A stretch of 64,000 nucleotides of DNA. It comes from Sphingopyxis sp. OPL5. Its GTDB lineage: Bacteria > Pseudomonadota > Alphaproteobacteria > Sphingomonadales > Sphingomonadaceae. The stretch lies in the NCBI RefSeq assembly GCF_003797775.2, contig NZ_CP060725.1:1-64000 (forward strand). Direction: 5' to 3'. This document shows, piece after piece, positions 6,468 to 43,754 of the stretch. The translations under genes and the position numbers were made by a program. The notes beneath the pieces are model-generated. The model saw nothing but the letters and a program-made list of their open reading frames with translations. It ran no database searches and was not told where the DNA came from. Positions within the stretch are counted from its first letter, which is position 1, and every line of letters starts with the position of its first letter.

Positions 6468-6666
6468 GGCTCTTTCCCCTTTGTCGCTGCCGAAAGCCGA
6501 GCGGGCGCGCCGCGCCCGGCCCGGAATCGGCCTTCGCGCCGGTCTTAGCCATGCCTCCCGCGATGCTCAATAGATGGTTTTGCGATAAGTCGCCCGCCGC
6601 AAAAGCCCGACGCGCTTAATCGCCCTTTTACCCCTTTCGCGTAGATCGGCGGTTCGACGCGGAACA

Positions 6667-6686
6667 GGTGGCAGAAAACTGCCGCC
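6667..6686. promoter_or_regulatory. Palindrome upstream of response regulator gene
   Basis: GG-t-GGCAG-AAAA-CTGCC-g-CC forms an imperfect 20-bp dyad with an A-rich centre, 22 nt before the start of the response-regulator gene at 6709. Its size and position fit an operator, perhaps for autoregulation. It does not match the -24/-12 sigma54 consensus. The rest of the 240-bp gap between 6467 and 6709 shows nothing else clear. Confidence 0.4.
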
Positions 6687-6708
6687 CAATGGGGGCATAT
6701 TCACACCG

Positions 6709-8142
6709 ATGGCAAGCGCGCGCGACACCCGAATGGTGATGATCGTCGACAGCGAACCGGCGCAACAGCGCTTCCTGTCGGCGCTCGTGTCGCGTGGCGG
6801 CTGGCGCAGCGTGATCGCCGGCGACACCGACACCGCGCTCGCCAAGCTCGGCACCCAGGAAGGCATGGCGCTCGACGCCGTGCTTGTCGACCAGGGCACG
6901 CCGGGCATGGATATGGCCGAATTCGTCGCCGAACTGCGCCGCTGGCGCCCCGCGCTGCCGCTGATCGTCATCACGATGCGCAACGGGGTCGAGGTCGCGG
7001 TCAGCGCGATGCGCGCCGGGGCAAGCGATTTCGTCCAGAAACCGATCGCCCCCGACCGCCTGCTCAACGCGCTCGACCGGATCACCGCGACCAGCGGCCC
7101 GCAGGGCGAACTCCGCCCGCTCACCGAAAAGCTGCGCGCGCCGCTGGCGTTCGAGGAAATCATCGGGTCGAGCCCCAATTTCCGCAGCGCGCTCGCGATC
7201 GCCGCCAAGGCGGCGCGCGCGCGCGTGCCGGTGATGATCAACGGCAAGCCCGGCACCGGCAAGGAAGTCTTTGCCCGCGCGATCCACAGCGCCAGCCCGC
7301 GCGCCCGCGGCGGGCTGGTGATGGTCGATTGCTCGGCGGTGTCGCCGGGGCTGATCGGATCGGGGCTGTTCGGCCACGAACGCGGCGCCTTTCCCGGCGC
7401 CTTCGACCGCCAGGTCGGCCGGCTGGTCCAGGCCGACGCGGGCAGCATCATCATCGACCATGTCGAGTGCATCCCGCTCGAGACGCAGGCGAAGCTCGTC
7501 GAATTCCTCAACACCGGCGAAGTCCAGATGATCGGCGGCAGCATCCGCCAGAGCGTCGATGTGCGCATCATCGCGACCAGCGCCAGCCCGCTCGACAAGC
7601 TGATCGAGGCCGGTCATTTCCGCGAAGACCTGTTCTATGCGCTGTCGAGCGCGCAGTTCACCCTGCCCTCGCTCTCGGAACGCCGCGGCGACGTCGGTCC
7701 GCTCGCGCGCCATTTGCTCGCGCGCATCGGCGGCCTGCCGGGCATGGGACCGATCGGAGTCACCGACGACGCGCTGCGCCTGCTCGCCGCCTATGCCTGG
7801 CCGGGCAATGTCCGCCAGTTGCAGGACGTGCTGTTCCGCGCCGCGGTCGGCAGCACCACTGATGTGCTCACCAGCGCCGATTTCCAGGCGCTCGAGGCGA
7901 CGCTCGCCGGCGGCAGCATGGTCGGCCAGGGCGATGTCGCGATCAACGGCGAAGCGATCGGCGTCACCCTCTACCTGCCCGACGGCAACCTCCGCCCGCT
8001 CGAGGAGATCGAGGCCGACGTGATCCGCCTCGCGATCGGCCACTATCGCGGCCGGATGAGCGAAGTCGCCCGAAGGCTCGGGATCGGGCGCTCGACGTTG
8101 TATCGCAAATTGAGCGACCTCGGGATCGACACGGCGGCCTGA
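6709..8142 (+). CDS. Response regulator of the NtrC/sigma54-activator type with degenerate AAA+ motifs
   Basis: The 477-residue protein has a receiver domain (about 8-125; putative phospho-Asp in AVLVDQGTPG, conserved Lys in VQKPIA), an AAA+ domain (about 145-385) and a C-terminal Fis-type helix-turn-helix (MSEVARRLGIGRSTLYRKL). The Walker A region is GKPGTGKE. The sigma54-contact loop GAFTGA is changed to GAFPGA, and the Walker B region reads SIIIDHVE instead of LFLDEVGE, so the catalytic Glu is replaced by His. PrsR in the same window has the canonical motifs. It probably does not remodel sigma54 holoenzyme in the usual way and may act as a DNA-binding regulator of sigma70-type promoters. 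No sensor kinase lies next to it. Confidence 0.88.
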   Translation: MASARDTRMVMIVDSEPAQQRFLSALVSRGGWRSVIAGDTDTALAKLGTQEGMALDAVLVDQGTPGMDMAEFVAELRRWRPALPLIVITMRNGVEVAVSAMRAGASDFVQKPIAPDRLLNALDRITATSGPQGELRPLTEKLRAPLAFEEIIGSSPNFRSALAIAAKAARARVPVMINGKPGTGKEVFARAIHSASPRARGGLVMVDCSAVSPGLIGSGLFGHERGAFPGAFDRQVGRLVQADAGSIIIDHVECIPLETQAKLVEFLNTGEVQMIGGSIRQSVDVRIIATSASPLDKLIEAGHFREDLFYALSSAQFTLPSLSERRGDVGPLARHLLARIGGLPGMGPIGVTDDALRLLAAYAWPGNVRQLQDVLFRAAVGSTTDVLTSADFQALEATLAGGSMVGQGDVAINGEAIGVTLYLPDGNLRPLEEIEADVIRLAIGHYRGRMSEVARRLGIGRSTLYRKLSDLGIDTAA

Positions 8143-36079: not shown

Positions 36080-36159
36080 GGGAAAGTGGCGCCCTTTCAG
36101 GCGCACACCTAGCTGTGAGGGGTGAAGTGTCGGTTAACTTTACACACAGGTTGGCGCCG

Positions 36160-36252
36160 ACCGCTCTGGATTGCTTCGCTTCGCTCGCAATGACGAGCCT
36201 CCAAATGCTCCGTCATTGCGAGGAGCGAAGCGACGCGGCAATCCAGAGCGGT
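36160..36252. repeat. Intergenic palindrome, 'cgtcattgcgag' type
   Basis: Arms at 36160-36195 (accgctctggattgcttcgc) and 36211-36252 are near-perfect reverse complements, meeting at the common tgacg/cgtca core. This type of 'ttgcgag ... gcaatccag' palindrome is widespread between genes in alphaproteobacteria. It lies between the divergent sugar transferase and manC genes; the remaining bases of the 245-bp gap show no clear promoter. Confidence 0.75.
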
Positions 36253-36323
36253 TCAAGGCCAGCCTTGCACCATTAACCCATTCAAGGGATGACCATTCCG
36301 TCCGAAAGGCTTAGACCGTCTCC

Positions 36324-38121: not shown

Positions 38122-39942
38122 ATGCTCGACCGCCGCACGCTTCTCGCCACGCTCGCCGCGACCTCGGCGCTCGCCGGCGCCCGCGCGCACGCGATGCTCG
38201 CCGAACCCGCCAGCGAGGGCGACAGGCTGACCGCGCTCTACGAACGCATCTACGACCGGCTGATCGACGAAAGCCCCGAATTCGCCGCCGCGCTCGGGCT
38301 CGACAAGGGCGAGCGCGCGGCACTCAAGGCCAAGCTCGACGACCGTTCACCCGCGGGGATCAAGAAGAACCACCAGCTCTATCGCGACGGCCTCGCCGAC
38401 CTCAAAAAGATAAACGTATCAAAGCTTTCGGGCATGGACCTCGTCAATTACGAAACCTTCCGCGGCCCGTGGGAGGGCTATGTGAAGGCCTATGACACAT
38501 TCTCCTACGGCCTCCACAGCTGGCCCGAACCGCATCCGGTGACCCAGTTGTCGGGCGCCTATCGCGCGGTCCCCGATTTCCTGATCAACCAGCATGCAAT
38601 CGCCGGGGCCGCCGATGCCGAAGCCTATCTGGCGCGCTGCGCCGACTTCGCGGTCCAGCTCGACAACGAAACCGGGCGGCTCAAGGCCGATCATGCCAAT
38701 GGCATCATCCCGCCCGACTTCGTCATCGACCGCACCCTCGGCCAGTTCGACCGCATCTGGGCCCCCGCGCCCGACGCCAACGGCCTGACCACCAATATTG
38801 CGGCGAAGACCAAGGACATCCCCGGCGACTGGGCGGCGCGCTGCGCGGCGCTGATCGAGGACAAGATATACCCAGCGATGCAGCGTCAGGCCGCCGAACT
38901 TCGCGCGGTGCGGCCAAAGGCGACGCACGATGCCGGCGTCTGGCGCCTGCCGCAGGGCGAGGATTATTACGCCTATGCGCTGCGTTTCGCGACGACGACG
39001 GGCATGTCGGCAGAGGAGGTGCACAAGCTCGGCCTCGACCGCGTCGCCGACCTGTCGGCGCAGGCCGACGCGATCTTCAAGGCGCAGGGCATGACCAAGG
39101 GCAGCGTCGCCGAACGGATGCGCGCGCTCGGCAAGGACCCGCGCTTCCTCTATCCCAACACCGACGAAGGCAAGGCGAAGCTGATCGCCGAGCTCAACAA
39201 CCAGATGCAGGCGATGCAGGCCCGCCTGCCCGAAGCCTTCGGCCGCCTGCCCAAGGCGAAGGCCGAAATCCGCCGCGTCCCCGCCGATATCGAGGATGGC
39301 GCGACCGGCGGCTATTATCAGGTCCCCGCGCTCGACGGTTCGCGCCCCGGCGCCTATTATATCAACCTGCGCGATACCGCCGAAAACCCCAGCTGGACGC
39401 TACCCACGCTGACCTATCACGAGGCCTCGCCGGGCCATCACCACCAGATCGCGCTGGCGCAGGAAGCGACCGGCATCCCGCGCCTCCGCCGCCTGCCCGC
39501 TTACTCGGTCTATACCGAGGGCTGGGGCCTCTATGCCGAACAGCTCGCCGACGAGATGGGGGTTTATGAAAACGACCCGTGGGGCCGGCTCGGATATCTG
39601 CAAAGTTACATGTTCCGCGCCGCCCGCCTCGTCGTCGATACCGGGCTCCACCATTATCGCTGGACCCGCGAGAAGGGCATCCAATATTATAACGAGACGC
39701 TCGGCACCCCCGAACCGTCGAACGTCACCGAGATCGAACGCTATTGCGTCTGGCCCGGTCAGGCGACGAGCTACATGGTCGGCCAGACCCGGTGGGTGGC
39801 GATCCGCGAAAAGGCGAAGGTCGCGCTCGGCGACAAATTCGACCTTCGCGCCTTCCACGACACCGCGCTGTCGGCGGGCGCGATGCCGATCGAGGTGCTC
39901 GCGGGACTGATCGAGCGCTGGACCGCGGCGCAACTGGCCTAG
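38122..39942 (+). CDS. Exported DUF885 family protein, probable metallopeptidase
   Basis: The 606-residue protein has an RR-type signal (LDRRTLLATLAATSALAGARAHA, Tat-like) and the DUF885 fold. A metal-binding LTYHEASPGHHHQIALAQE (HExxPGHH) lies at about residues 432-450, with SVYTEGWGLYAEQLADEMG after it giving the third ligand Glu. Such proteins are exported zinc peptidases of the M3/M32-like gluzincin group with poorly known substrates. GGAGACCTCCCC before the ATG is a reasonable ribosome site. Confidence 0.9.
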   Translation: MLDRRTLLATLAATSALAGARAHAMLAEPASEGDRLTALYERIYDRLIDESPEFAAALGLDKGERAALKAKLDDRSPAGIKKNHQLYRDGLADLKKINVSKLSGMDLVNYETFRGPWEGYVKAYDTFSYGLHSWPEPHPVTQLSGAYRAVPDFLINQHAIAGAADAEAYLARCADFAVQLDNETGRLKADHANGIIPPDFVIDRTLGQFDRIWAPAPDANGLTTNIAAKTKDIPGDWAARCAALIEDKIYPAMQRQAAELRAVRPKATHDAGVWRLPQGEDYYAYALRFATTTGMSAEEVHKLGLDRVADLSAQADAIFKAQGMTKGSVAERMRALGKDPRFLYPNTDEGKAKLIAELNNQMQAMQARLPEAFGRLPKAKAEIRRVPADIEDGATGGYYQVPALDGSRPGAYYINLRDTAENPSWTLPTLTYHEASPGHHHQIALAQEATGIPRLRRLPAYSVYTEGWGLYAEQLADEMGVYENDPWGRLGYLQSYMFRAARLVVDTGLHHYRWTREKGIQYYNETLGTPEPSNVTEIERYCVWPGQATSYMVGQTRWVAIREKAKVALGDKFDLRAFHDTALSAGAMPIEVLAGLIERWTAAQLA

Positions 39943-40102
39943 CGCCCGACGTCGCGCCGCCTTGCAAAAAGCGGTCGGCGCAGCTAAAGGCCGCGCCAGC
40001 CAAATCCCGGCCACAGTCTGAAACGGAAAGGAGAGATCATGCGAACCGCTGTTCACACACACCGCATCCTAACTTTCCACCGTCATCAGGATTCTGTGAC
40101 AT

Positions 40103-40118
40103 GGGCACTTTGCTTGCA
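40103..40118 (+). promoter_or_regulatory. Predicted sigma54 (-24/-12) promoter of the RNA-repair operon
   Basis: GGGCAC-TTTGC-TTGCA matches the sigma54 consensus TGGCAC-N5-TTGCA at every informative position except the first T. The invariant GG (40104-40105) and GC (40116-40117) are at the correct 12-bp phase. Transcription would start near 40129, about 93 nt before the GTG of the first gene. In E. coli the related rtcBA operon is sigma54-dependent through RtcR. No RtcR gene lies in this window. Confidence 0.65.
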
Positions 40119-40221
40119 GGCGGCACCGCTCGCCTGACCCTTTCGCGCCGTACCGGCACGAGCCACTATTTCATTACCAAAGGCGCCGCATCGGCTGCTT
40201 CCCTCGCGGGGGAGCTTCGTC

Positions 40222-40710
40222 GTGCGCGCTGATATGTTCAAGGTCATCGTCGAACGCCCGCGCTGCGGTTCGCGACATGTACCATCCGTCAAACTCAAGA
40301 GGAGCGATCCCGGCATCCATTTCGTCGGCCACAAGCGCCAGGTCAAAACCGAGGCACGCTATTACAAGGACCTCAATGAAAATTTCGCCCCGCTGATCCG
40401 CTTCCTGCGGAGCCGGCGCGGTCGCCGCTGGGACGATGTGTTCAGCGAAATCTGCGCCGGGCTCGACACCGGCAGCACGGTGAAGATGCACGTCCGCGCT
40501 CATCTCGACGATTTTATCGCCTCGCGCATCTCGATCGGACGCGACGGCGAATGGATGATGGACGGAGAGGTCCTGGGCCGCAAGGGTCGGTGGAGTTGGC
40601 GTCGCTGGCACTTCTTCGTCGATCCGACCGACGGCATCCTGCGCGACGCGGCCGAACTGGAACGCCGCCTGCCGCCCGCCAACCGCGCGGCGAAAGGCGG
40701 TGGACGATGA
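40222..40710 (+). CDS. Uncharacterised first gene of the RtcB2-PrfH operon
   Basis: The 162-residue basic cytosolic protein has no domain I can name. Notable parts are FKVIVERPRCGSR at the N-terminus, the DLNENFAPLIRFLRSRRGRR-WDDVFSEICAGLD block in the middle and VKMHVRAHLDDFIASR, then a Trp/Arg-rich WRRWHFFVDP near the end. The many Arg/Lys residues and the W(D/N)-VFSEI block suggest an RNA- or ribosome-binding protein. I recall similar proteins beside rtcB2/prfH in other bacteria, which a neighbourhood search should test. The GTG start has GGGGGAG at the right distance; an ATG at 40234 lacks one. It overlaps rtcB2 by 4 nt. Confidence 0.8.
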   Translation: MRADMFKVIVERPRCGSRHVPSVKLKRSDPGIHFVGHKRQVKTEARYYKDLNENFAPLIRFLRSRRGRRWDDVFSEICAGLDTGSTVKMHVRAHLDDFIASRISIGRDGEWMMDGEVLGRKGRWSWRRWHFFVDPTDGILRDAAELERRLPPANRAAKGGGR

Positions 40711-41813
40711 GCGATACTCCGTTCCACCTCGTCGGCGCCGACCCGCGCCTGTTCGATCCGGTCGCGCTCGACCAGCTCGAACGCACCGCCGCGCTGCCCG
40801 GCATCGCGCGGGTCGTCGGGCTTCCCGACCTCCACGCCGGACGCGGCATTGCGGTCGGCGCGGCCTATTGGTCGCCGACGCATATCTATCCGCACCTCGT
40901 CGGCGGCGACATCGGCTGCGGCATGGCGCTTTGGCAAACCGGAGGAGCCTTGCGCAAATTCCGCCCCGATGCCGCCGAGCGCAAGCTCCACGGCCTCGAC
41001 GGCCCGTGGGACGGCGATGCGGCGGCGGTGCTTGCGGCTGCGGGCCTTCCCGCCGACCTCGCCGACGCCTCGCTCGGCACGATCGGCGGCGGCAATCATT
41101 TCGTCGAGTTGCAGCGGGTCGAGGAGGTGGTCGATGCCGAACGCTTCGCGGCGCTCGCCCTTCATCCCGACCGCGTCTGGATGATGGTGCACAGCGGCTC
41201 GCGCGGGCTCGGTCAGGCGATCCTCGACACCTGGACCGCGCGCGGCGCGCTGGCCGGGCTCGTCGCCGACAGCGAAGATGGCCGCGCCTATCTGGCCGAT
41301 CATGACCGCGCGATGGGTTGGGCGGTCGTCAACCGCGACGTGATCGCCGCGCGCTTTCTCGCGGCGCTCGGTCTCGGCGGGCGGCGGCTGCTCGACATCT
41401 GCCACAACAGCGTCACGGCGCTGAGCGGCGGCTGGCTCCACCGCAAGGGGGCGGCTCCCGCCGATCGCGGGCTGGTCGCGATCCCCGGCTCGCGCGGCGA
41501 CTTCAGCTATCTCGTCGAGCCGCTGGAGGGACGCGCCGACGAAGCTCTCCATTCGCTCGCGCATGGCGCCGGACGCAAATGGAGCCGCGGCGATGCCCGC
41601 GCGCGGCTGTCGGACCGCTTCAAGGTGGCCGAACTCGAACGCACCGCGCTCGGCAGCCGGGTGATCTGCGAGGATCGGCAATTGATCTTCGAGGAAGCGC
41701 CGCAGGCTTATAAGGATATCGCGCGCGTGATCGCCGACCTCGAACAGGCGGGCCTCGTCCGCGTCGTCGCGCGGCTCCGCCCGCTCATCAGCTACAAGGT
41801 GAGGCGCGCATGA
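40707..41813 (+). CDS. RNA ligase RtcB family protein (RtcB2, release-factor-H-coupled)
   Basis: RtcB joins RNA 2',3'-cyclic phosphate and 5'-OH ends with GTP and Mn2+. The 368-residue protein has the family metal and guanylation motifs: GLPDLHAGRGIAVG, HLVGGDIGCGMALW (metal Asp and Cys), GGGNHFVELQ, VHSGSRGLGQ and the SLAHGAGRKWSR containing the guanylated His. It is shorter than RtcB1 (about 408) and belongs with the RtcB2 type coupled to PrfH. In E. coli ATCC 25922 the RtcB2-PrfH pair is known to repair ribosomes cut in the 16S decoding centre. It overlaps both neighbours by 4 nt. Confidence 0.92.
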   Translation: MSDTPFHLVGADPRLFDPVALDQLERTAALPGIARVVGLPDLHAGRGIAVGAAYWSPTHIYPHLVGGDIGCGMALWQTGGALRKFRPDAAERKLHGLDGPWDGDAAAVLAAAGLPADLADASLGTIGGGNHFVELQRVEEVVDAERFAALALHPDRVWMMVHSGSRGLGQAILDTWTARGALAGLVADSEDGRAYLADHDRAMGWAVVNRDVIAARFLAALGLGGRRLLDICHNSVTALSGGWLHRKGAAPADRGLVAIPGSRGDFSYLVEPLEGRADEALHSLAHGAGRKWSRGDARARLSDRFKVAELERTALGSRVICEDRQLIFEEAPQAYKDIARVIADLEQAGLVRVVARLRPLISYKVRRA

Positions 41814-42430
41814 CCGAAATCATCCTCCACCTGTCGTCGGGAAGCGGCCCCGCCGAATGCCGCTGGGTCGTCGCCCGCCTCGCCCGCGCCTTCATCCGCG
41901 AGGCGCGGGGCTGCGATGTCGAATGCGAACCGCTGGAGGTGCCCGACGACGATCCGGCCTCGCTGCTGCTGCGCGTGTCGGGATCCGGCGCCGAATCCTT
42001 TGCGCAGCAACGGACGGGGACGATCCTGTGGACCGGGCAAAGCCCCTTCCGGCCAACGCACAAACGCAAGAACTGGTTCGTCGGCGTCGCGCCCGTCGGG
42101 CTGGCCGAAGAGACCGACGAAATCCGCGATGCCGACATCGACTATCAGGCAATGCGCGCGAGCGGTCCGGGCGGCCAGCATGTCAACAAGACCGACAGCG
42201 CGGTGCGCGCGACCCACCGCCCGACCGGCCTGGTCGCCGTATCCCAGGAGCAAAGGTCGCAGCACGCCAACCGCAAGGTCGCGCGGCTAAAGCTCGTACT
42301 GCTGCTCGCCGAACGGCGCGAAGCCGCTGCAGGCGATGCCCGGCGCGACGCATGGGACCGCAATCAGGGTCTCGAACGCGGCAATCCGGTGCGGACCTAC
42401 GCCGGCGCGGATTTCCGCCTCAAGCGGTGA
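41810..42430 (+). CDS. prfH: Peptide chain release factor H (PrfH)
   Basis: The 206-residue protein is a release-factor homologue with the catalytic GPGGQHVNKTDSAVRATH (GGQ near residue 120) and the following basic ARRTHRPTGL-like and RSQHANRKVARLKL stretches. It lacks the long stop-codon-recognition domain 2 of RF1/RF2 and has its own N-terminal segment, as in PrfH. PrfH releases nascent peptides from ribosomes damaged in the decoding centre so that RtcB2 can reseal the RNA. Its end overlaps the convergent kinase gene by 11 nt. Confidence 0.93.
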   Translation: MTEIILHLSSGSGPAECRWVVARLARAFIREARGCDVECEPLEVPDDDPASLLLRVSGSGAESFAQQRTGTILWTGQSPFRPTHKRKNWFVGVAPVGLAEETDEIRDADIDYQAMRASGPGGQHVNKTDSAVRATHRPTGLVAVSQEQRSQHANRKVARLKLVLLLAERREAAAGDARRDAWDRNQGLERGNPVRTYAGADFRLKR

Positions 42431-43754
42431 TGACGGGCGGGTTTTTCGGCAACACCAGTCGCGCCGCCAGCCCGCCCAGCCCGCTCTCGCCCAGTTCGAG
42501 CGCGCCGCCCATCGCCTGCGCCGCCTTCGCCGCCGACGCCAGTCCCAGCCCGGCGCCCCCGGCGTCGCGCGCCCGCGCATCGTCGAGGCGCCGGAACGGC
42601 AATAGCGCCTCGGCGCGCTGACCCGGCGCGATGCCCGGCCCGTCGTCCTCGACCGCCACGACGAACCGGTCGGGCGCCGCCTCGGCGAGGATCAGCTCGA
42701 TCCGCTCGCCGTGCCGCCGCGCATTGTCGATCAGGTTCGCGATGATCCGCTTGATCGCCAGCGGCCGCCCCATGACGAGCAGTTCGTCGGGGCCGCGATA
42801 GGCGATCGCGGCGCCCAGGTCGGCGGCGTTGTCGGCGGCGGTCGACACCAGCGCCGCGACGTCGATCAACCGCACCGCCTCGTCCTCGCCGCTGCGGACA
42901 TAGGCGAGCGTCGATTCGATGAAATGCTCCATCTCGACGAGATCGGCGGCGATCGCGTCGCGTCCCTCGTCGTCATCGAGCAGCGAGGCGCGCAACCGAA
43001 GCCGCTGGATCGGGGTGCGCAAATCGTGCGACACCGCGACCAGCGCATGCGTATGGTCCTCCATCGCATCGAGCAGCCGGAGCTGCATCGCGGCAAAGGC
43101 GGTGGCGACGCGTCGCACCTCGGGCGGCCCCTCGACCGCCAGCACGCCGACTTGGCCCTGCCCCGTCGCGTCGGCGGCTTCGGCAAGGTTGCGCAAGGGG
43201 CGCACCAGCGCATGCACCATGATCAGCGCCAGACCGAGCACCGTCGCGATCAGCAACAGGTGCATCGCGATCACCGCCCCCGGCGACGGCGGCGCCCCCA
43301 GATAGGGGCTGATGCGAAAGGTGATATAACTCTGGTCGGCGAGTTGCAGCGCCCCGATCAGGTCGCGCTCGCCCGCCGCTTCCGACGGGATCAGCGTCAG
43401 CCTGAGCTCGCGCCCCGCGAGGCCCGGCGCCGCGCGGACGAGCCGCGCGCGCATCGTGCCGAGCTGCTCGAAGGACGCGCTGTAATCGGTGATGACGCTG
43501 CGCGGCACCCAGTTCAGCGACAGGCCCCTGGTGGCGAGACGGTGCATCGCACGCTCGCGCCGGTCCACCGGATTCGCCAGCGCCGTTCGTTCGGCCTCGA
43601 CCAGCTGCGCTGCGATCCGCTCGACCTGTTCGACCGGAAGCAGTTCGCGTTCCTGCCAGCGATGCAGCGCGACATTGCCGACGAGCTCGAGAACGACCGC
43701 GCAGATGAGCACCAGCGCGATGCGCGCGACCATGCCCAGCGGACGGCGGCCCAT
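42420..43754 (-). CDS. Sensor histidine kinase
   Basis: The 444-residue inner-membrane kinase has a first helix (ARIALVLICAVVLELVGNV), a periplasmic loop of about 120 residues, a second helix (AMHLLLIATVLGLALIMVHAL), a HAMP linker and a kinase core: ALVAVSHDLRTPIQRLRLR (phospho-His), IIANLIDNARRHGE (N-box), VEDDGPGIAPGQ and GGAGLGLASAAKAAQ. It partners the response regulator encoded just upstream (2-nt gap). The stimulus is unknown; the divergent iron-regulated receptor hints at metal or siderophore sensing. Confidence 0.93.
   Translation of the reverse strand: MGRRPLGMVARIALVLICAVVLELVGNVALHRWQERELLPVEQVERIAAQLVEAERTALANPVDRRERAMHRLATRGLSLNWVPRSVITDYSASFEQLGTMRARLVRAAPGLAGRELRLTLIPSEAAGERDLIGALQLADQSYITFRISPYLGAPPSPGAVIAMHLLLIATVLGLALIMVHALVRPLRNLAEAADATGQGQVGVLAVEGPPEVRRVATAFAAMQLRLLDAMEDHTHALVAVSHDLRTPIQRLRLRASLLDDDEGRDAIAADLVEMEHFIESTLAYVRSGEDEAVRLIDVAALVSTAADNAADLGAAIAYRGPDELLVMGRPLAIKRIIANLIDNARRHGERIELILAEAAPDRFVVAVEDDGPGIAPGQRAEALLPFRRLDDARARDAGGAGLGLASAAKAAQAMGGALELGESGLGGLAARLVLPKNPPVITA

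Follow-up and report, generated by a model that had tools for sequence, protein, structure and literature searches.

A predicted ribosome-repair operon of Sphingopyxis sp. OPL5 with a candidate regulatory leader and an uncatalogued RtcB-associated protein

INTRODUCTION

How does an operon for ribosome repair learn that ribosomes are damaged, and what is the role of an uncharacterized protein encoded at its head? Both questions are raised by a locus in the first 64,000 nucleotides (nt) of contig NZ_CP060725.1 of Sphingopyxis sp. OPL5 (this whole stretch is referred to as the window), in which a gene of no recognized family, here designated X, precedes rtcB2 and prfH. RtcB2-PrfH was reported to protect E. 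coli from colicin E3 (PMC9223846). An earlier note on this DNA had proposed a three-gene operon with a sigma54 promoter, in which X is a partner of the rtcB2-prfH pair and may either sense damage or bring the substrate. Analysis of the locus and its relatives leads us to favor, with moderate confidence in the explanation as a whole, a ribosome-repair operon composed of a leader, X, rtcB2, and prfH, whose repair function is predicted. The operon would be controlled by its leader, X would be an accessory factor of RtcB-family ligases, and X would have been inserted behind the start of rtcB2, ahead of the rest of the gene.

RESULTS

Genes of the operon and properties of protein X

The three genes are positioned on the same strand and overlap by 4-nt ATGA sequences at 40707-40710 and 41810-41813 (Table 1), as the earlier note had stated. 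The identities that it assigned to RtcB2 and PrfH were borne out by scores above the curated NCBIfam cut-offs. The rtcB2 product reached 470.7 bits against NF007153/PRK09588 (cut-off, 407) and 428.2 bits against TIGR03073 (cut-off, 271.8), and the product of the gene following rtcB2 reached 211.1 bits against TIGR03072 (cut-off, 166.65). The GTG start of X in the window is likely to be right, because the start codons of its homologs (ATG in nearly all of those read and TTG in L028) fall at the same position.

The description of X as a protein without a recognized domain held for both the window protein and its relatives. Searches with the window protein revealed no significant match in Pfam or NCBIfam and a match at chance level in PHROGs (E = 9.3); its relatives matched no family in the three databases either, the best E value being 0.023 for one member only. 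X occurs in a short form of 155 to 166 amino acids (aa), to which the window protein belongs, and in a long form of about 245 to 265 aa with an extra C-terminal part that ends near QLSKKELKKHGLKN. In an alignment of 32 rows, K50, P58, W71, H91, and H95 (numbering of the long form L027) were invariant, and nearly all rows began with M-R-x-D-M...E-R-x-R. The NEN..APL..FL...W(D/N).V.SEI block, singled out in the earlier note, is likewise conserved among the relatives. AlphaFold2 models had a predicted local distance difference test (pLDDT) value of 70.5 for the window protein and 78.3 for the long form. Comparison of these models with the PDB and fold searches gave no usable match; VIA rows lay mainly over residues 160 to 245 of L027. 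Judged from sequence comparison, X is a conserved, RtcB-associated family, and the data support its status as a new component, absent from the catalogs, that is linked to RNA repair of the RtcB type.

X adjoins two types of RtcB genes

A scan of genome contigs revealed 31 X loci, nearly all labeled alphaproteobacterial; L013 is labeled Planctomyces, and its X is nearly equal to that of L017. The gene order of the window recurs in these loci. Of 29 informative loci, 27 have rtcB2 immediately downstream of X, the misses being L015 and L021 (L033 and L035, at contig ends, were left out; L030 and L032 were counted with a partial gene at the contig end), and in most pairs the two genes share an ATGA or GTGA. 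prfH comes next in 24 of the 27 loci informative for it (L030, L032, L033, and L035 left out) and is missing in L015, L021, and L029, the rtcB2 match of L029 being cut short. In L021 (6001-6489), X and its leader are followed by a gene for a pyridoxal phosphate-dependent enzyme, and in L015 (6001-6498) by an opposite-strand gene that by eye encodes a LysR-type regulator. These two X genes are probably remnants of lost operons.

The distribution of X is sporadic, and it extends well outside the genus, so that confinement to the genus, named in the earlier note as a ground for refutation, does not apply. Five of the 199 genomes of the family of the window carry X, and in this sample at least three further members of the genus lack it. 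Wider alignments revealed X in 5/398 genomes of the phylum, including G325, whose match (41 residues, E = 2e-6) is too weak to be counted as X. Outside the class of the window, X was found in 6/111 genomes of the order of G348 and in 4/97 genomes of the family of G363. In the former group, X is positioned between canonical rtcB and rtcA in all six loci, with rtcA partial at the contig end in L150 and a stop inside X in L151. In the latter group, rtcB is located directly upstream of X in three of four loci, including L157, where only the last 60 residues of rtcB were matched. Three loci with X after canonical rtcB (L047, L182, and L183) also carry rtcR, and a contig of a metagenome-assembled genome (L033) holds rtcB, rtcA, and X within about 4.2 kb. 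X is also present in Myxococcus phage Mx1 and in 21 viral contigs, some near-identical, in which the stretch examined gave no match to rtcB, rtcA, rtcB2, or prfH. The proposed partnership was thus upheld as a tie to RtcB-type repair but not as specific to the rtcB2-prfH pair, since X also occurs between canonical rtcB and rtcA. Its position next to both kinds of RtcB gene suggests that X acts as an accessory factor for RtcB-family ligases.

Searching from the rtcB2/prfH side revealed the pair in 11/398 genomes of the phylum, of which only that of the window was also in the X list. rtcB2-prfH was found in 24/198 genomes of each of two other families. The TIGR03072 cut-off was exceeded in 5/385 genomes of the class, with X beside prfH in the genome of the window and G730 and without it in G531, G771, and G878. 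A plasmid collection held 32 records with rtcB2-prfH; among 10 that were read, one from Novosphingobium contained X and nine did not. X is therefore regarded as an addition in one branch rather than a core part.

The leader of the X operon

Upstream of X, two overlapping upstream open reading frames (uORF1 and uORF2) and three hairpins (HP1 to HP3) were recognized (Table 1). An uORF1 with a strong Shine-Dalgarno sequence (SD) was present in all 31 X leaders scanned. It measures 29 to 34 aa and overlaps uORF2 in 27 of them, and in the remaining four (L031, L032, L035, and L037) it is a 14-aa ORF ending before uORF2. The AGGAG part of its SD is near-invariant in an alignment of 25 leaders (A2). 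The uORF2 start, ATGGGC, was found in 33/33 leaders, 60 to 175 nt before X. The distance from this ATG to the X start takes 12 distinct values (85 to 151 nt), all equal to 1 modulo 3, and 31 of 32 leaders (all except L011) keep the frame open up to and into X. If spacings were free and independent, the chance of this pattern would be about (1/3)^11; the leaders are, however, related.

Substitutions are flat over the codon positions in uORF1 and uORF2, whereas X shows the usual third-position excess. There is thus no sign of selection for a functional peptide: the reading frames are kept, the peptides are not, and uORF1 would be conserved as RNA or as a ribosome track.

Table 1. Features of the operon and its leader in the window
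Feature	Position	Strand	Description
Possible sigma70-type promoter	39962..39990	+	TTGCAA, 17 nt, TAAAGG; best -35/-10 match of the window leader; weak assignment
Strong SD of uORF1	40025..40033	+	GGAAAGGAG
uORF1	40039..40137	+	32 aa, MRTAVHTHRILTFHRHQDSVTWALCLQAAPLA
uORF2	40101..40232	+	43 aa; stop overlaps X codons 3-4
sigma54-like match	40104..40118	+	GGCAC-N5-TTGCA, exact consensus match; judged coincidental
HP1	40118..40135	+	Hairpin at 3' end of uORF1, into its stop codon
HP2	40142..40162	+	Hairpin, from energy versus shuffles
HP3	40197..40215	+	Hairpin; pairs SD of X
X	40222..40710	+	162 aa, GTG start; uncatalogued RtcB-associated protein, short form
rtcB2	40707..41813	+	RNA ligase RtcB family, PRK09588/NF007153
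prfH	41810..42430	+	Peptide chain release factor H; GGQ seen in translation

All three hairpins exceeded their shuffled controls. The energy sum over 23 leaders was -198.8 for HP1, compared with -105.5 in shuffles (standard deviation, 8.9), and -286.3 for HP2, compared with -187.2 (standard deviation, 10.9), each with 0/300. Covariation of HP1 in 25 leaders gave 0/500 for paired cells and for score, 16/500 for pairs changed on both sides (4 of 7), and 27/500 for further pair types. The control stretch between HP2 and HP3, long enough in 10 leaders, showed no excess folding (65/300). For HP3, forced pairing of the X SD in 27 leaders summed to -236.0, compared with -127.6 in shuffles (standard deviation, 28.1; 0/300); taken singly, the SD core was paired in 21 leaders and found no pairing with the chosen core in six. 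SD pairing averaged -8.74 for X versus -1.24 for 82 other genes of the loci. RNAalifold also proposed that the starts of uORF2 and X pair with each other over a long range; this pairing was set aside, since both sides are nearly invariant and no two-sided change occurs. Rfam gave only weak matches over 39900-42500, far below the gathering scores, and none in the leader.

Leaders of rtcB2-prfH operons without X

An SD-led ORF of 8 to 40 codons was found within 260 nt upstream of rtcB2 in 55 of 63 X-less loci versus 44 of 511 other large ORFs of the same fetched loci. With a strong SD and 8 to 20 codons, the counts were 50/63 and 6/511. L097, with too little upstream sequence, and L103, with no clear rtcB2 start, were left out, and two of the eight loci without such an ORF (L124 and L125) hold a truncated rtcB2. 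The leader ORFs mostly encode 10 to 16 aa, often with an LCR or LCG motif.

For segment pairing, 35 of the 55 leaders were picked by the analyst from E. coli-, Klebsiella-, Proteus-, and Pseudomonas-like loci, omitting near-duplicates and the alphaproteobacterial leaders L081, L082, L086, L098, L099, L101, and L102. Four segments were named, namely, the SD of the ORF (segment 1), a segment inside the ORF (segment 2), a segment downstream (segment 3), and the rtcB2 SD (segment 4). They were located in each sequence separately, and 1:2 was scored by forced pairing, since two registers exist. Segments 2 and 3 paired at six of six positions in 32/35 leaders, compared with a mean of 5.9 and a maximum of 12 in shuffles; because segment 3 was picked as the best complement, the shuffle control used the same choice step. 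Three 2:3 positions change on both sides in a compensatory manner, and the sums of the 1:2 and 3:4 pairings beat 200/200 shuffles. On these predicted pairings, the four-segment arrangement corresponds to that of a leader by which ribosome stalling is sensed.

uORF2 resembles the start of rtcB2

In X-less loci, RtcB2 starts with MG followed by N, T, K, or R in 52/60 cases; the starts in L104 to L147 were chosen with a preference for ATGGG/ATGGA, which favors MG, and annotation agrees with the MG start in four annotated records (L085 to L087 and L102). In the window, as in seven further loci that were read, RtcB2 beside X lacks an MG-type start. The MG of uORF2 is given by construction, as uORF2 was located by ATGGGC; it continues with N, T, or K in 33/33 leaders. 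Compared with RtcB2 N termini, positions 4 to 14 of uORF2 scored a mean of -3.1, 125 other ORF starts of the same leaders -11.6, and true RtcB2 16.3. The insertion of X thus probably separated the start of rtcB2 from its body, leaving uORF2 behind as the former rtcB2 start. On the simplest reading, the old start was kept because uORF2 opens HP3 and couples to X.

DISCUSSION

Proposed mechanism and points against it

In the proposed mechanism, healthy ribosomes would translate uORF1 without stalling, which would keep uORF2 and X closed. Ribosomes stalled on uORF1, for example, because they are cut in the decoding center, would change the RNA fold so that uORF2 is translated. Ribosomes on uORF2 would melt HP3 and reach X by termination-reinitiation, and coupled translation would then yield all three proteins, X, RtcB2, and PrfH. 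PrfH would then free the jammed ribosome and RtcB2 reseal the RNA, as reported for relatives, while X would work with the ligase or its RNA substrate. The opening of the leader by damaged ribosomes, a translational mode of control, and support of the ligase by X are inferences; damage sensing more likely resides in the RNA leader than in X. The system is sound and partly new: it brings into RtcB-type RNA repair an uncatalogued protein family that occurs in two different operon contexts, and the leader offers a possible answer to how rtcB2-prfH operons learn of ribosome damage.

Several results weigh against this explanation. Taken in full, the leader of the window was not more stably folded than its shuffled versions (z = -1.0; 32/200). 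A pairing of the uORF2 SD with uORF1 was tested in leaders of the window type and not supported (z = +1.5; 281/300). The uORF1 SD pairs inside uORF1 in 14/23 leaders (sum, 0/300) but not in that of the window with the forced core. The X leaders are related, so the shuffle counts overstate independence and confidence. Among the X-less leaders with a chosen SD core, the 3:4 pairing failed in 11/34. As to X, a profile search of the 65 rtcB2 loci fetched from the rtcB2/prfH side revealed no X at E = 0.1, and G363 has X without an rtcB match within about 7 kb.

Alternative explanations

Transcription from the sigma54 promoter of the earlier note, switched on by RtcR, is very unlikely here. The match is exact, an RtcR gene is present in the genome, and GG-N10-GC is kept in 11/33 X leaders, that of the window included. 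However, the -12 GC is missing in the other 22, and the GG is present because it is part of the uORF2 start ATGGGC. The site lies inside uORF1 and at the start of uORF2, so a transcript starting there would lose uORF1, whose SD is near-invariant. The only RtcR match of the genome is at C1:1809833, outside the window and about 2.6 kb from canonical rtcB. With neither a conserved -24 GG/-12 GC nor an adjacent rtcR, a sigma54/RtcR-controlled operon is not supported. In many X leaders, inspection by eye shows a sigma70-like hexamer pair ahead of uORF1; a formal scan of 33 leaders, near-duplicates included, placed the best match in that region (-127 to -143 relative to uORF2) in only 13.

The leader might instead act by transcription attenuation, through a terminator or Rho, rather than by hidden ribosome-binding sites. 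We consider this doubtful, even though it is the mode described for the P. aeruginosa leader PA5471.1, with a 3:4 terminator (PMC13041342). By eye, U-rich stretches follow HP1 only beyond a gap of several nt (no terminator scan was made), and the paired X SD together with the frame of uORF2 running into X fits translational control. It is improbable that X binds RNA to repress its own operon and, like ribosomal proteins, leaves the leader when damaged RNA appears, the hairpins mimicking its target (rRNA or ligase substrate). The many conserved basic residues of X, the hairpins that keep their structure while the letters change, and the retention of the leader in L015 and L021 (X without rtcB2-prfH) would fit such a repressor, but leader ORFs also precede X-less rtcB2-prfH operons, and no leader of this type was seen upstream of X in L046 or L047, where X follows rtcB. 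We give almost no credence to X being a passenger or a toxin-antitoxin-like gene without a repair role. Its sporadic presence and its occurrence on viral contigs without rtcB in the stretch examined speak for a passenger, whereas its repeated adjacency to rtcB2, with overlapping ends, and to rtcB-rtcA speaks against one.

Comparison with known systems

Control of the operon by its leader has parallels in known systems. In erm-type translational attenuators, a leader ORF is combined with a paired SD of the downstream gene. Both elements are found in the window, and an alternative pairing is supported in the X-less leaders tested; whereas the erm type responds to a drug, the present leader would respond to a broken ribosome. 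Of the features of stalling leaders of the PA5471.1 or erm type, uORF1 provides the short SD-led ORF and HP3 the sequestration of the downstream SD; mutually exclusive pairings are supported in the 35 chosen X-less leaders and none was shown for the leader type of the window.

The closest parallel with a described leader is PA5471.1-armZ-PA5470 of P. aeruginosa. PA5471 (armZ) encodes a PRK09588 protein related to RtcB and is cotranscribed with the release factor gene PA5470; PA5471.1, a 13-aa leader about 250 bp upstream, ties armZ to ribosome disruption (PMC3516279). The PRK09588 cluster, to which PMC3516279 assigns armZ, is also the one matched by RtcB2 of the window. armZ is switched on when ribosomes stall on PA5471.1, and under one condition Q3 and F4 play a part (PMC13041342). 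In the X-less locus L142, a leader of 13 aa that contains Q3 and F4 lies 254 nt upstream of rtcB2; it is probably PA5471.1 itself or closely related to it. Both systems thus combine a leader ORF, an RtcB-like PRK09588 protein, and a predicted release factor, the P. aeruginosa leader being a reporter of stalling (PMC3516279, PMC13041342, PMC12057347). In contrast to the window, no X is reported for PA5471.1-armZ-PA5470 in the text available, which describes it as an attenuation-controlled route to efflux pump induction, not repair. The window leader also differs in its longer, overlapping uORFs and in its hairpins. According to a 2025 review, MexXY appears to be the only case in which a leader peptide regulates an anti-repressor (PMC12057347). 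A literature search that covered few subscription papers found none that connects the leader with the wider rtcB2-prfH family and none that names X.

The RtcB2-PrfH operons of E. coli ATCC25922 and others (PMC9223846, PMC1586002) share with the window the order rtcB2-prfH and close or overlapping ends, and an E. coli plasmid copy (L085) also has an SD-led upstream leader ORF of 15 aa. Unlike in the window, X is lacking in the E. coli type, and rtcB2 itself starts at the ATGGGC that in the window belongs only to uORF2. RtcR-controlled rtcBA (PMC7790460) likewise encodes an RtcB-family ligase, with X between rtcB and rtcA in some genomes, but it is under RtcR and sigma54 with tRNA fragments as the signal (PMC7790460), whereas the window has no supported sigma54 promoter. 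X also resembles accessory proteins (3) and (4) of RFH-RtcB systems, uncharacterized charged proteins encoded beside RFH-RtcB (PMC6514570). One of these has zinc ribbons, and the other is said, in the text available, to lack detectable homologs, of which X has many; X is set apart from (4) by this description only, and the two may be identical.

These comparisons tie the question of damage sensing to the PA5471.1-armZ leader and allow a wider proposal, which we put forward tentatively as somewhat short of probable. Across the rtcB2-prfH family, a leader ORF would gauge ribosome integrity and turn on the repair kit, armZ being one captured case. X would serve RtcB-family ligases in general, either as a cofactor or as a subunit that handles the substrate; it would have been recruited on two or more occasions (X-rtcB2-prfH and rtcB-X-rtcA), and large phages carry it as well.

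Further observations on related loci

Analysis of the fetched loci revealed several other arrangements. In the window itself, a small ORF at 36115-36276 contains an ALDCFASLAMT stretch, which may belong to a dispersed repeat known from alphaproteobacteria. In the window's own genome, canonical rtcB with rtcR nearby is located at 465-4885 of L179 (C1, about 1.806 to 1.810 Mb), and X is absent there. In the Skermanella plasmid L084, a polynucleotide kinase-phosphatase gene, a second RNA-repair module, is positioned about 2.2 kb upstream of rtcB2-prfH, and in the Shinella plasmid L102 another RtcB-family gene lies just upstream of the pair, with a gap of about 230 nt. rtcB2-prfH can travel with resistance regions, because in a Klebsiella IncC plasmid record (L087) the stretch of the conjugative plasmid that holds the pair also contains qnrA6 and sul1. 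In the Novosphingobium plasmid copy L045, X and rtcB2 match over nearly their full length, and prfH (6571-7187) matches as two pieces in different frames and may be broken or misread. On a 71-kb viral contig (L168, 5001-6165), X overlaps a 137-aa ORF with an HHCTLKFG stretch, which we take to be reminiscent of 2H phosphoesterases, with no support from Pfam; a zeta-toxin/AAA_33-type gene is located about 2 kb farther along.

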